From an uncultured Pseudokineococcus sp. (GTDB lineage Bacteria > Actinomycetota > Actinomycetes > Actinomycetales > Quadrisphaeraceae): 64,000 nucleotides of DNA. Location: contig NZ_CANMAA010000003.1 in NCBI RefSeq assembly GCF_947495735.1, positions 372,001 to 436,000 of the forward strand, in the 5' to 3' direction. The notes under the pieces were generated by a model. That model was not told where the DNA came from. It was given only the letters and a program-made list of their open reading frames with translations, and made no database searches. The number at the start of each line of letters is the position of its first letter. Position 1 is the stretch's first letter. This document shows, in pieces, positions 7,673-63,458 of the stretch. A program made the position numbers and the translations under genes.

Positions 7673-8428
7673 GTGCGCCTCGCCGTGATCATCCCCGCCA
7701 AGGACGAGGAGGAGCGGATCGACGCCACCGTCCGCGCCGCCCTGGAGATCGAGGGCGTCGACGTCGTCGTCGTGGTCGACGACGGCAGCTCCGACCGGAC
7801 GGCCGTCACCGCCCGCGCCGCCGGAGCCCGTGTGGTGCGCCACCACCGGAACCTCGGCAAGGCCGCGGCCCTGGAGAGCGGCGCCGCCCTCGTGCGCGAC
7901 CTCGAGCAGCCGCCGCCCGGCGTCGTCCACGACACCGCCGGGCGGGCCCTGGCCACGGACGAGCCCCGCGCGCTGCTGCTCGTGGACGCCGACCTCGGCG
8001 CGACCGCCCGCGAGACCGCCGCGCTGGCGGGGCCCGTGCTGGCGGGTGAGGCCGACGCGACGATCGCCGTCCTCCCGCCGCAGTCGGCTCCCGGGGGCGG
8101 CCGCGGGCTCGTCGTCGGGCTCGCGCGCCGCGGCATCGTCGCGGCGACGGGGTGGACGCCGACCCAGCCGCTGTCGGGCATGCGCTGCCTCACGCGCGAC
8201 GCCTTCGAGAGCGCGCGCCCCCTCGCCCCCGGCTGGGGCGTGGAGACGGCGATGACGATCGACCTGCTGCGCGCCGGCCAGCGCGTGCTCGAGGTGCCCT
8301 GCGCGCTGCAGCACCGCGTCTCGGGGAAGGGCTGGCGCGCGCAGCTGCACCGCGCGGCGCAGTACCGCGACGTCGCGCGCGCCCTCGCCGCTCGCGGCCG
8401 GCTGGACGCGCTCGTCCCGCCGCGCTGA
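7673..8428 (+). CDS. Family 2 glycosyltransferase
   Basis: A 251-residue GT-A fold enzyme. The nucleotide-sugar binding start is LAVIIPAKDEEERI, followed by VVDDGSSDRT and the metal-binding LLLVDADLGA (DxD). There is no transmembrane segment, so it acts at the cytoplasmic face. Donor and acceptor cannot be read from sequence. I picked the GTG at 7673 because TAGCGT ends seven bases before it, the leaderless arrangement used repeatedly here; in-frame GTGs at 7649 and 7664 are alternatives. The membrane protein at 8894-11224 often accompanies such enzymes, but a shared pathway is only a guess. Confidence 0.8.
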   Translation: MRLAVIIPAKDEEERIDATVRAALEIEGVDVVVVVDDGSSDRTAVTARAAGARVVRHHRNLGKAAALESGAALVRDLEQPPPGVVHDTAGRALATDEPRALLLVDADLGATARETAALAGPVLAGEADATIAVLPPQSAPGGGRGLVVGLARRGIVAATGWTPTQPLSGMRCLTRDAFESARPLAPGWGVETAMTIDLLRAGQRVLEVPCALQHRVSGKGWRAQLHRAAQYRDVARALAARGRLDALVPPR

Positions 8429-8526
8429 GCGGGGCGCCGCCGCAGGAGCGACCCGACGCGGAGGTCCGGGGCCGTCCTGGGCGTCTGCGGGACGCGGCGA
8501 GGTCCCCGGCGCTACCGTCCGCCGCC

Positions 8527-16443: not shown

Positions 16444-16554
16444 GCCGCGGTCCGTCCGTCCGTCCGGGGGAGGCTGCACGGGGACCACCCGGACGGGCGG
16501 CGGGACGGGCGCGGGACGGGCGGCCCGTCGGGGCCCTCTCGTACTATCTGCGCC

Positions 16555-18684
16555 GTGACGGAGATCGACGGGCTCGCCGACGTGCAGCCCCTCGCGGGCG
16601 CGGTCCTGCCGTCCGTCGTCCGCGACACCCCGGCCGCCGTGCTGCTCGTGGACCTCCAGCTCGGCGAGGTCGTCTACGCCAACCACCTGGCGCAGCAGCT
16701 CGCGCCCGGCACCGGCCTCCCGGTGAGCATCCCCGAGTGGTCCCGCGCCGCCGGGCTGCACGACGACACGGGCGAGGACCTGGAGGACGGCCCGGCCCCC
16801 CTGCGCCGCGTCGCCTCGGGCGAGCCGGTCACCGGGGAGGCCGTCACCGCGGCGCGCGAGTCCGACACCACCTCGGCGCGCGAGGCCCTGTGGGTGGTCG
16901 GCATCCCGCTGACCGACGCCCCGCCCCCGCTCGCCACGCAGGCCCTCGTCGTCATGCTGCCGCTGCGCGAGCAGGAGGCCGTCGCCGAGCTGCAGGAGTC
17001 CGGCGACCTGCGCCACCGCGCCGTCCTCGCCAGCGACCTCTCGTTCAGCATCAGCGACCCCCACACCGAGGACAACCCGCTGGTCTGGGTGAACCCGGCG
17101 TTCGAGCGCACCACCGGCTACAGCTTCGAGGACGTCGCCGGTCGCAACTGCCGCTTCCTGCAGGGCCCCGGCACCGACCCGGAGGCGGTGGCGCGCATCT
17201 CGCGCGCCCTGCGCGAGGACGAGCCCGTCACGGAGGTGCTCCTGAACTTCCGCAAGGACGGGACCGCCTTCTGGAACGAGGTGGTGATCAGCCCGGTCTT
17301 CGACGCGGAGGGGCAGCTGACCCACCACGTGGGCGTCCAGGCCGACGTGACCGCCCGGGTCGAGGCCGCCGCCGAGCGCGACCGCGCGCTCGAGGCCGCC
17401 CGCCTGGCGAACGCGCGCCTGGAGGCCCTGGCGCGCGTCAGCACCGCCCTGTCCAGCCGCCTCGACAGCCGCGAGGCCCTGGCCGTCCTGCCGGGCCTCG
17501 TCGTCCCCGACCTGGCCGTCTGGGCGTTCGCGCTCGGCACCGACGGGTCCGGCCGCGCGTCCTCCTTCTCCGTCGTGCACCGCGACCCCGCCATGGCCGA
17601 GCACGCGCGGGCGCTCGCCGCCGAGGACCCGAGCGGCTACGAGCACGGACCCGTCCTCGTCGAGCTGCTCTCCGGAGCGGTCACGACCCCGCTGTCGTGG
17701 GAGCTCGGGGCCGAGGAGGTGGCCGCGACGCTGACGAGCGAGGCGTCGCGCGCGGCGGTGCGCGCCATGGGCGTCGGCCGCGTCGTCGTCGTGCCGCTGC
17801 GCGCGCGGGGCCGGACGACGGCGGTGCTCGGCCTCGTGCTCGGCGACGCGCCCCCGCCGAGCGCCACCGACGTCGCCACGATGGCCGACGTCGGCCTGCG
17901 CGCGGGCCTGGCCATCGACAACGCGCGCCTGTACGAGCGCGAGCACGCCGCCGCGCTGACCCTGCAGCGCAGCCTGCTCCCGGACCTGCCGGACCTGGAG
18001 CACTTCGACGTCGCGGCCACGTACCTGCCCGCCTCGCTGGGCGCCGAGGTGGGCGGTGACTGGTACGACGTCCTCGACCTGCCGGACGGCGCGGTGGGCG
18101 TGGCCATCGGCGACGTCATGGGCCACGACCTCTCGGCGGCCGCGGCCATGGGGCAGCTGCGCTCGGTGCTGCGCTCCTACGCCTGGAGCGGCGACGAGCC
18201 CGGCGCCGTGCTGCGCCAGCTCGACCTGCTCGTCCGCGGCCTGGGGATGGCCGGCCTCGCCACGTGCGTCTACGCGCGCATCGCCTGCGACGCCGACGGC
18301 GCCCGCTGCGCCGTCACCTACGCCAAGGCCGGGCACCCGCCGCCGCTGCTGCTCCTGCCCGACGGACGCGTGGAGCGGCTGGACCAGGCGCTCACCACGC
18401 CCATCGGCGTCGCCGCCGCCAAGACCGTCGTGGACCAGGCCGAGGTCCCGCTGCCCCCGGGGGCCTCGCTCGTGCTCTACACCGACGGGCTGGTCGAGCG
18501 CCGCGACCGCCCGCTGCGCCAGGGCATCGAGGAGCTGGCGCAGACCCTGGCGGCGGCGCCCGCCGGCTGCGACGCGACGACGCTGCGCGACCTCGTCGTC
18601 GAGCGCTTCGCCGACGGCGGTGAGGACCTCGACGACGACACCTGCGTCCTCGTCGTCCGGCGCAGCCCCGACGCCCCCGCCTGA
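16555..18684 (+). CDS. LOV-domain photoreceptor with GAF and PP2C (SpoIIE-type) phosphatase domains
   Basis: A 709-residue cytoplasmic signalling protein. Residues 15-140 look PAS-like (VLLVDLQLGEVVYANHLAQQ). Residues about 155-275 are a LOV domain: NPLVWVNPAFERTTGYS, then the flavin-adduct motif GRNCRFLQG with Cys199, then FRKDGTAFWNE. A GAF domain follows (about 285-450). Residues 460-705 are PP2C: GAEVGGDWYD, IGDVMGHDLSAAA, KAGHPPPL, LYTDGLVERR and DDDTCVLVV supply the metal-binding Asp residues. Blue light should form a flavin-Cys bond and change phosphatase activity toward an anti-sigma antagonist; the target is not known. TACTAT seven bases before the GTG indicates a leaderless start. 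Confidence 0.9.
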   Translation: MTEIDGLADVQPLAGAVLPSVVRDTPAAVLLVDLQLGEVVYANHLAQQLAPGTGLPVSIPEWSRAAGLHDDTGEDLEDGPAPLRRVASGEPVTGEAVTAARESDTTSAREALWVVGIPLTDAPPPLATQALVVMLPLREQEAVAELQESGDLRHRAVLASDLSFSISDPHTEDNPLVWVNPAFERTTGYSFEDVAGRNCRFLQGPGTDPEAVARISRALREDEPVTEVLLNFRKDGTAFWNEVVISPVFDAEGQLTHHVGVQADVTARVEAAAERDRALEAARLANARLEALARVSTALSSRLDSREALAVLPGLVVPDLAVWAFALGTDGSGRASSFSVVHRDPAMAEHARALAAEDPSGYEHGPVLVELLSGAVTTPLSWELGAEEVAATLTSEASRAAVRAMGVGRVVVVPLRARGRTTAVLGLVLGDAPPPSATDVATMADVGLRAGLAIDNARLYEREHAAALTLQRSLLPDLPDLEHFDVAATYLPASLGAEVGGDWYDVLDLPDGAVGVAIGDVMGHDLSAAAAMGQLRSVLRSYAWSGDEPGAVLRQLDLLVRGLGMAGLATCVYARIACDADGARCAVTYAKAGHPPPLLLLPDGRVERLDQALTTPIGVAAAKTVVDQAEVPLPPGASLVLYTDGLVERRDRPLRQGIEELAQTLAAAPAGCDATTLRDLVVERFADGGEDLDDDTCVLVVRRSPDAPA

Positions 18685-18717
18685 GGCGCGAGCCGCCGCG
18701 GTCCCCCGCTCAGGCGG
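18677..18717. terminator. Hairpin across two convergent stop codons
   Basis: CCGCCTGAG (18677-18685) and its complement CTCAGGCGG (18709-18717) each contain the stop codon of one convergent gene, the LOV phosphatase and the GGDEF-EAL protein. The 9-bp stem with a 23-base loop could act as a bidirectional terminator. There is no T-run. Confidence 0.45.
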
Positions 18718-20500
18718 CCACGCGGTCGCGGCGGCTGATGTCGACGTCCGCCAGCGGGACGGGCCGCTGCAGGTGGTAGCCCTGGGCCGCGTCGCAGCCC
18801 GCCTCGCGCAGCGCCGCCACCTGGTCGGGCGTCTCGACCCCCTCGGCCGTGACCTCCAGGTCCAGCGCGCGGGCCATCGCGAGCACGGCGTCCACGACGG
18901 GGGTGCACCCCTCCCCCGGGACGACGCGGTCGACGAAGGACTTGTCGAGCTTGAGGACGTCGACGGGCAGCTGGTCCAGCCGGGAGAGCGTCGACCACCC
19001 CGTGCCGAAGTCGTCCACGGCCACGCGCACGCCAGCCCGGCGCAGCTCGTCGAGCGAGGCCGTCATCGTCGGGGCGTCCGCGAACGCCGTCTCGGTCACC
19101 TCGAGCACGAGGTCGCCGGCGGGCAGGCCGCTGTCCGCCAGCGCCCGCAGGACGCGCCCGGGGTAGGCCGGTGAGGCCAGCTCGGCGCCGGAGACGTTGA
19201 CGGCCACGCCGGCCGTGGTGCCCGTCCGCCGCTGCCAGTCCCGCACCTCGTGGCACGCGGAGCGCAGGACGCGCGCGCCCAGCAGGTCCACGACGCCCGT
19301 GGCCTCCGCCAGGGGCAGGAAGCGGTCGGGGGGCAGCAGGCCCCGCTCGGGGTGCTGCCAGCGCACGAGGGCCTCGACGCCGCTCAGCGCGCCCGTCGCC
19401 AGGTCGACGACGGGCTGGTAGTGCAGGACGAGCTGCCCGTCGGTGATGGCGTGCAGGAGCTCCTCGGCCTCGGGGGTGTCCAGGCTGGCCGGCAGGAGGC
19501 CGCGGCTGCGCCGCTTGGCGGCGTAGAGGTCGGCGTCGGCGCGCTGGCGCCACGTGGCGGCGGTGTCGGCGCCGTCGAGCACGGCCACGCCGAAGGAGAC
19601 CCGCTGGCCCTGCGGCAGGTCGGCGGCAGCGGCCGAGAGCCTGCTGCGGGCGTCGTCCTCGGCGGCCTCGACGACCCACACGAACTCGTCTCCGCCGATG
19701 CGGGCCAGGAGCCCGTCCCCGAGCTCGCGCTGCAGGTGGCGGGCGACGACGACGAGGCGCGCGTCACCCGCGGCGTGGCCGAGGCTGTCGTTGACCTCCT
19801 TGAAGCCGTCGAGGTCGAGCATGGCCAGGCAGACGCGACCCGCCGCGCCGCCCGCCACGTGGGCGTCCAGGGCCCGGGCGAGCGCGCGCCGGTTCGGCAG
19901 CTGCGTCAGGTCGTCGACGTCGGCCTGCGCCACCGCCCGGCTCACGACCACCCCGAGGACGGCGACGGCGACCAGCGCGACGCCGAGGTAGACGGCCTCC
20001 ACGACCAGGCCGCCGCCGGGGACGAGCAGGAGCAGGCCGACCGCGGCGCCCACGACCAGGGCCAGGTGGGCCAGGGCTGCACGCGGGCGCAGCAGCAGCG
20101 AGGACGGGAGCACCCCGAGGACGGCCAGGCCGGTGATCGCCACGAGGCGGCCGCGGTCCCCGGCCGCGTCGATCGCCGCCAGGGCCAGCATCACCTCGGC
20201 GCCGACGACGGACGCGTGCAGCACCGCCCACGTCACCGCCGTGCGCGCGAGCAGGAGGAGGACGCCGCCCACCGCGGTGACCGCGGCGATGGCGACGAGC
20301 AGGGCGGACGTCTGGCCGGAAGCCGGGGCGAGGGCCGACAGGGCGGCGCACCCCGAGCCCAGGAGCATCACGCAGCCGGCGGCGGTCCCCGCCACGGGAG
20401 CGGGGAGCCCGCCGGGGACGGGCCCTGCGCCGCGGCCGGCGCGCCGGCCGCCAGGAGGACCGGTCGGGGGCTCCTCCTGCTCTCGTCGTCGTCCGTGCAC
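18710..20500 (-). CDS. GGDEF-EAL cyclic-di-GMP protein with N-terminal membrane region
   Basis: A 596-residue protein. About six transmembrane helices fill residues 40-195, an unassigned sensor region. The diguanylate cyclase domain has [15 protein letters not shown] and an intact active-site GGDEF (near residue 270). The phosphodiesterase domain has GVEALVRW with the EAL triplet (near 378), [18 protein letters not shown] and TAEGVET. Since both signature motifs are kept, it may make or break c-di-GMP depending on signal. The GTG at 20500 has GAGGAT six bases upstream, compatible with leaderless expression. It faces the LOV phosphatase tail to tail. Confidence 0.9.
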
Positions 20501-62884: not shown

Positions 62885-63328
62885 TCAGGCGCCCAGGCAG
62901 GCCCACACGTGCTTGCGGGAGCCCTCGACGTACCAGCCGCGGTCGTGCGCGAGCAGCGCCACCAGGGGCAGGCCGTGGCCGCCCAGACCGGGCGAGCGGT
63001 CGTGCTCCGGCGAGGGGGGCTTGGTGACGTCGGGGTCGGCGACGTCGAGCAGGCACCGGCCGCCGTCGAGCACCACGGTGACCTCCGCGGGCGGGGAGGC
63101 GTGCCGCAGGGCGTTGGTGACGAGCTCGCTCAGCAGCAGCGCGAGCGTGTCCGGGAGGCTGATCGCCCCGGCCCACCCCTCACCGGCCGCCGGCATCTCG
63201 GAGGCGTGCGAGGCGAGCTCGCGCCGAGCGGTGGTGAGGTCCGAGGAGCTGCGGACGACCCAGGAGAGGAAGGGGGGACCCTCCACGTCGGGGTGCCCCT
63301 GGGGCCAGGTGGTGCTGCAGGACACCAT
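62885..63328 (-). CDS. RsbW-like ATP-binding protein (HATPase_c_2)
   Basis: A 147-residue GHKL-fold protein. The N-box is LLLSELVTNALRHA; GLGGHGLPLVALLA is the G2-like ATP-lid motif. Such small proteins act as anti-sigma kinases in partner switches with PP2C phosphatases. I start at the ATG at 63328, preceded by GAGGGTGG; the frame extends to 63433 but the extra residues do not look conserved. It is the second of this family in the window. Confidence 0.78.
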   Translation of the reverse strand: MVSCSTTWPQGHPDVEGPPFLSWVVRSSSDLTTARRELASHASEMPAAGEGWAGAISLPDTLALLLSELVTNALRHASPPAEVTVVLDGGRCLLDVADPDVTKPPSPEHDRSPGLGGHGLPLVALLAHDRGWYVEGSRKHVWACLGA

Positions 63329-63458
63329 CCACCCCACCCTCGACCCCCACGGGTCCTCGACACGTCCGGGCGCGTCGACGCCCGTGCTCGCGAACCACGG
63401 TAGGTGCGACGCCCCGTGAGCGCCCGTCCGCACCGCGCCGAGGTCCCTCGGACGGGGC

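Follow-up and report, generated by a model that had tools for sequence, protein, structure and literature searches.

A predicted PAS-LOV-GAF-PP2C protein and the whole-heptad LOV-to-GAF linkers of its relatives

Can a single soluble protein carry blue light into a partner-switching stress response, and does the gene at 16555-18684 of the 64,000-nucleotide stretch of DNA analysed here (the window) encode one? The initial annotation had read this gene as a LOV domain joined to GAF and PP2C domains and had suggested that light may act through partner switching. We consider it probable that the product is a soluble, RsbU/RsbP-type receptor for blue light acting on a STAS/RsbW-like partner switch. 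Most likely, the gene belongs to a common and little-studied group in which light tunes a stress-type switch and no histidine kinase takes part. The features of the locus, with the evidence for each, are as follows.

16542..16547, + strand: TACTAT, a -10-like TANNNT box 7 nt before the GTG, likely a leaderless promoter (sequence, congeneric conservation, background rate)
16555..18684, + strand: PAS-LOV-GAF-PP2C gene (ORF, translation, Pfam, AF2 model)
16636..16965, + strand: PAS-like N-terminal domain, residues 28-137 (AF2, Foldseek; sequence profiles are blind to this domain)
17017..17358, + strand: LOV domain, about residues 155-268 (Pfam, NCBIfam, PDB matches, Foldseek)
17149..17151, + strand: codon of Cys199, the presumed flavin-adduct cysteine (conserved in each of the 23 full-length relatives read)
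17350..17454, + strand: LOV-to-GAF helix, residues 266-300 (AF2; length conserved modulo 7 in the linker survey)
17467..17865, + strand: GAF-like domain, about residues 305-437 (AF2; sub-threshold Pfam GAF)
17863..17976, + strand: GAF-to-PP2C helix, residues 437-474, with NARLY and LQRSLLP motifs (AF2, sequence)
17977..18663, + strand: SpoIIE/RsbU-type PP2C domain, residues 475-703 (Pfam, alignment, PDB relatives)
18710..20500, - strand: GGDEF-EAL gene, intact, tail-to-tail neighbour (Pfam; synteny within the genus only)
341-808, + strand: HATPase_c_2 (RsbW-like) protein (Pfam)
62885-63433, - strand: HATPase_c_2 (RsbW-like) protein (Pfam)

The frame starts with GTG and encodes 709 amino acids (~74 kDa); internal stops are absent from the ORF and its translation, and the third-position GC is 0.99. 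Orthologs with 75-84% identity across the full length were found in three other genomes of the genus. A TANNNT box stands 6-7 nt before the GTG in four of four congeneric genomes: two of the three orthologs share TACTAT and the 7-nt spacing, the third has TAGGAT at 6 nt, and the sequence farther upstream diverges. As a background rate, TANNNT at that spacing precedes 6 of 1432 occurrences of [AG]TG on the + strand of the window and 6 of 1515 on the - strand (12 of 2947 in total, the gene's own box included). A promoter and terminator scan found nothing. The mRNA is likely leaderless, as had been proposed in the initial annotation, and the conserved box supports this.

The LOV domain was recognised by several searches. 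PAS_9 matched residues 172-267 at 1.6e-20, over the Pfam cut-off, and LOV-specific NCBIfam models matched residues 148-280 (YtvA family, 3.7e-39; blue-light-activated HK, 1.7e-36), each of them short of its full-length cut-off. Matches to LOV structures in the PDB reached 1.5e-37, and Foldseek aligned the AF2 model with the Brucella LOV domain 3t50 at 0.7 A over 105 columns. The intact motif GRNCRFLQG begins at residue 196, so the number given earlier to Cys199 is right. N198, Q203, N231, N241 and Q262 are also in place; we take Cys199 to be the adduct cysteine and N198, N231, N241 and Q262 to be flavin-contact residues, and the domain is predicted to bind flavin and to undergo LOV photochemistry.

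The output domain is equally clear. SpoIIE (PF07228) matched residues 510-703 at 1.3e-45, with 156.1 bits against a cut-off of 25. D502, D520 and D644 are invariant in 49 aligned proteins and the D693-D695 run is present in the window protein; all of these are presumably metal-binding aspartates. The closest solved relative of the PP2C domain is M. tuberculosis Rv1364c (3ke6, 1e-22), and RssB is another PDB relative. With the Pfam match over its cut-off and the aspartates all there, the claim that a complete SpoIIE-type PP2C is joined to LOV stands, and both domains are certain.

An AF2 model of the 709-residue protein, computed as a monomer, contains four domains (mean pLDDT 88.7, pTM 0.73). 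The predicted GAF domain is assigned from this model together with weak GAF matches at residues 398-456, which lie below the Pfam cut-off (E 0.009-0.01). Residues 28-137, which the initial annotation had not described, look like a PAS-like domain in the model: when they were modelled alone the pLDDT was 74.9, and the Foldseek matches, nearly all of them PAS domains, were weak (one at E <= 0.001). Pfam PAS models gave no match over these residues, nor did a profile-profile comparison against the LOV alignment. No HisKA/HATPase kinase core was matched by Pfam in the window protein at E <= 1.

PAS and GAF domains are common sensors of other cues, and with two more sensor-like domains in the protein the LOV domain might bind flavin and yet serve mainly for redox sensing or as a constitutive module, with the PP2C output set by GAF or by the PAS-like domain. 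For redox sensing as such the adduct cysteine would be dispensable, yet all 23 full-length relatives read retain it, and so does L101, a LOV-PP2C locus with the variant motif GQNCRFLR. We therefore regard a redox or constitutive role as quite unlikely and prefer control of the phosphatase by light.

How the LOV domain might reach the phosphatase is suggested by the linker between LOV and GAF, which was measured between the conserved Gln of LOV and the beginning of the first helix of GAF and is 26 residues long in the window protein. From 68 LOV-PP2C segments, 63 were unique and 60 were scored; the others were L138, which is without GAF, and L221 and L224, in which the GAF start was unrecognised (by eye, these two are 7 residues apart from each other). 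The scored lengths were 19 (3 proteins), 26 (26), 33 (18), 40 (8), 47 (3), 54 (1) and 36 (1). Modulo 7, 59 of the 60 fall into one class; the remaining periods between 2 and 11 were also tried, and their largest classes contain 26 to 36 of the 60. On a tree built without the linker there were at least 12 length changes, a count that is only approximate because this was a quick tree with 14 of its 57 inner branches open; each change is a multiple of 7 except at one odd tip. The sole LOV-PP2C that breaks the heptad rule among the 60 scored is L142, with a linker of 36.

As a control, the same ruler was applied to 13 LOV-GGDEF rows (one of them a duplicate) and gave only 20 and 34, matching the pair of 21 and 35 that the consulted portion of the LadC study reports for LOV-GGDEF linkers and describes as heptad in character (PMC10396304). 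Heptad dependence is known from experiment for the LOV kinase YF1, according to an excerpt of the relevant paper (PMC6798134), and passages of another propose a coiled-coil linker mechanism for RsbU-type phosphatases in general (PMC12143880). Taken with these precedents, the quantised linker speaks for a parallel dimer of the window protein in which the signalling helix is continuous. We regard the whole-heptad LOV-to-GAF differences among relatives, which are new in this analysis, as the mark of a coiled-coil signalling linker. If the heptad rule is true, insertion of 7 residues should keep light control and insertion of 1 to 6 should alter it.

Whether such proteins are unusual was examined in class, order and phylum samples, in which a DNA pattern for the LOV motif was used and the matched loci, at most 30 per sample, were then searched with Pfam. 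The pattern matched 20 of 394 class genomes, 47 of 396 order genomes and 42 of 396 phylum genomes. Most frames were read only 1.5 kb beyond the LOV motif, and the patterns miss variants such as the GQNCRFLR of L101; the first pattern missed two host genes, on contigs C21 and C5. Among the matches listed, SpoIIE was the output in 29 of 30 LOV loci in the order (GGDEF in 1) and in 18 of 30 in the class (GGDEF in 12), and kinase models were found in neither of these samples, among the matches listed, at 1e-5. Of the 30 phylum loci among the matches listed, 28 were read, L168 (a 37-aa frame) and L176 (truncated by the contig end) being omitted; the outputs were SpoIIE (16), HATPase_c (4), GGDEF (3), HisKA (2) and HisKA_3 (2), and other loci of this sample had sensor domains only within the part read. 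The samples share some loci (L132/L197, L133/L208 and L134/L167).

LOV-phosphatases had been called rare compared with LOV-kinases in the initial annotation, and a section of a 2014 survey puts HK at about 50% among 1390 bacterial LOV proteins (PMC4844311). For the order and the class of the host this rarity is rejected, since SpoIIE predominates among the loci read in both samples and LOV-phosphatases are therefore the usual LOV output here. All 13 family genomes searched carry at least one LOV-PP2C frame. Full-length relatives were found in Kineococcus indalonis, K. rubinsiae, K. siccus, a Quadrisphaera MAG and Acidiferrimicrobium; the last (L033, 44% identity) lies outside the Kineococcus/Quadrisphaera group, and gene transfer is possible in this case.

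The host genome (4.2 Mb, 59 contigs) contains five LOV motifs, three on PP2C proteins (the window gene and those on C21 and C5) and two on LOV-GGDEF proteins (C11 and C24). The C5 paralog (L227 4816-6123) is a short LOV-PP2C protein of 435 aa without GAF, in which GDISGRG replaces the usual GDVxGH. As the two other host LOV-PP2C genes could replace the window gene, the latter might be a decaying gene or encode a pseudo-enzyme. Its intact frame, complete motifs and strong codon signature, and the full-length identity of 75-84% in three congeneric genomes, speak against decay and make this explanation extremely improbable; we continue to treat the product as a predicted active phosphatase.

The substrate of that phosphatase was sought in the neighbourhood. 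Upstream lie PheA, flotillin-like and MarR genes, and downstream lie GGDEF-EAL and Rce1-like genes. PheA, GGDEF-EAL and Rce1 are retained in three of three congeneric loci, and PheA and Rce1 occur in none of nine distinct loci outside the genus; GGDEF relatives (36-40% identity) are encoded in four of these nine cases (L001, L003, L004 and L117) and are located elsewhere. With 35 GGDEF matches, the 4.2-Mb host is a c-di-GMP-rich bacterium. The tail-to-tail c-di-GMP gene pointed out in the initial annotation is thus real, but its position is kept in the genus only, and as a candidate partner this neighbour was rejected on that ground and on the abundance of GGDEF genes (44-61) in the outside genomes.

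The light-regulated PP2C may instead act outside any STAS/sigma switch, for instance on a c-di-GMP protein or some other phosphoprotein: the GGDEF-EAL gene is tail-to-tail throughout the genus where no STAS gene adjoins, and GGDEF is the other LOV output in the class, among the matches listed. GGDEF genes are, however, abundant (35 in the host, 44-61 in the genomes of relatives), the tail-to-tail position is not kept outside the genus, and other clades show LOV-PP2C together with STAS/RsbW-like genes or domains. A substrate of this other kind seems rather improbable, and a phosphorylated STAS protein is preferred.

The evidence from relatives came from a regular-expression scan for the STAS motif, which was found in 13 of 58 LOV-PP2C loci (flanks of about 1.5 kb) and in 0 of 12 LOV-GGDEF loci. 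None of 9 other family loci had it (L101, among these 9, turned out to encode LOV-PP2C), but 6 of 75 GAF-SpoIIE loci (flanks up to 8 kb) did. Five STAS proteins beside LOV-PP2C genes were confirmed by Pfam. In L115 a STAS gene (Pfam) and the longest LOV-PP2C frame share 4 nt; in L094, L095 and L088 (three genomes, one clade) the LOV-PP2C protein is fused to a HATPase_c_2 (RsbW-like) domain with STAS genes on both sides; and in three of three Kineococcus loci a HATPase_c_2 (RsbW-like) gene is tail-to-tail with LOV-PP2C.

Within the host, the C21 paralog (L118 8032-11554) is a LOV-GAF-PP2C protein fused to an RsbW-like HATPase and flanked by two STAS genes at 8032-8514 and 10730-11554 of L118, and by its sequence this locus reads as a complete partner-switching module with its own predicted light sensor. 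On contig C1 (L163 5542-7142) a SigB/F/G-type sigma factor (252.5 bits against a cut-off of 234.35) is a candidate end point of the switch, and an RsbW-like gene overlaps its gene by 4 nt (25.7 bits, below the Pfam cut-off of 27.4).

Around the window gene itself the picture is sparser. No STAS or RsbW-like gene adjoins it, the nearest host match in a genome-wide search that covered PF01740 alone being ~50 kb off, and no STAS motif was found in the 17-19 kb around the three congeneric orthologs. The two RsbW-like ATPases and the sigma factor that had been listed for the window are all present, the former as HATPase_c_2 matches and the latter, with regions 2 and 4, starting in the first ~370 nt on the - strand and leaving the window at its left end; within 1-808 the sigma factor gene is divergent from the RsbW-like ATPase gene 341-808. 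As partners, however, they were rejected as evidence: the RsbW-like genes are 15.7 and 44 kb and the sigma factor about 16 kb from the LOV-PP2C gene, and the host genome has 21 HATPase_c_2 matches. The earlier idea of partner switching therefore survives as the likeliest pathway, but on the strength of the STAS/RsbW-like neighbours of relatives and not of these genes. Since such genes lie beside LOV-PP2C in relatives, partner switching is the best guess for the window gene, and its partner would be one of several host STAS proteins (9 PF01740 matches), alongside 12 SpoIIE phosphatases.

In the proposed mechanism, blue light would be absorbed by the LOV flavin, which would form an adduct with Cys199. 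The resulting change would reach GAF through helix 266-300, a parallel coiled coil, and a second helix (437-474) would relay it to PP2C and alter the Ser/Thr phosphatase activity, activation in the light being slightly favoured. The phosphatase is likely to act on a phosphorylated STAS protein (an anti-anti-sigma factor), through which light would shift a partner switch between an RsbW-like anti-sigma factor and STAS; further inputs may enter through GAF and the N-terminal PAS-like domain. A broader proposal, to which we give a little less than even credence, is that blue light in this order is read mainly by LOV-PP2C proteins feeding STAS/RsbW switches directly, without a stressosome or histidine kinase, through a register-keeping coiled coil between LOV and GAF that evolves by whole heptads and shares the mechanics of LOV kinases and cyclases.

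LOV kinases and cyclases have been dissected; a biochemical LOV-PP2C study was not found in the literature searched, which held passing mentions only and no characterised LOV-PP2C or LOV-SpoIIE member. The 2016 LOV census (Glantz and others) lay outside this search and may already hold the linker rule. Should the enzyme indeed be switched by light, a partner switch would have a natural light input made of one protein, the coiled-coil mechanism proposed for RsbU-type phosphatases could be tested with a clean on/off stimulus, and the protein might find use as an optogenetic Ser phosphatase.

The kind of protein is already in print: LOV-SpoIIE is named as a typical LOV output in the consulted passages of a 2014 review (PMC4844311), and 16555-18684 is a further example. 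Like other bacterial LOV-SpoIIE proteins it joins LOV to a SpoIIE-type phosphatase, but it adds a PAS-like domain before LOV and a GAF domain after it. With RsbP and RsbU of B. subtilis it shares a sensor, a helical linker and a PPM phosphatase of the type that starts a partner switch; RsbP needs RsbQ and RsbU needs RsbT, whereas the window protein has a built-in predicted photosensor. Rv1364c of M. tuberculosis, the closest solved PP2C relative, is an RsbU-RsbW protein, and the host C21 paralog likewise has a C-terminal RsbW-like domain; Rv1364c has PAS instead of LOV-GAF and a fused STAS, as part of one study describes (PMC12143880), whereas the window protein ends after PP2C. YtvA (LOV-STAS; Bacillus and Listeria) has the same LOV type, the NCBIfam YtvA family matching at 3.7e-39 over 155-280, but the window protein scores 134.7 bits against the family cut-off of 250 (NF052652) with its LOV part only, is without STAS and has a phosphatase output. 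LadC, of the LOV-activated diguanylate cyclases, also combines LOV with a helical linker that varies by whole heptads, as excerpts of its description state (PMC10396304); its output is GGDEF with no intervening GAF, whereas that of the window protein is PP2C, with GAF between.
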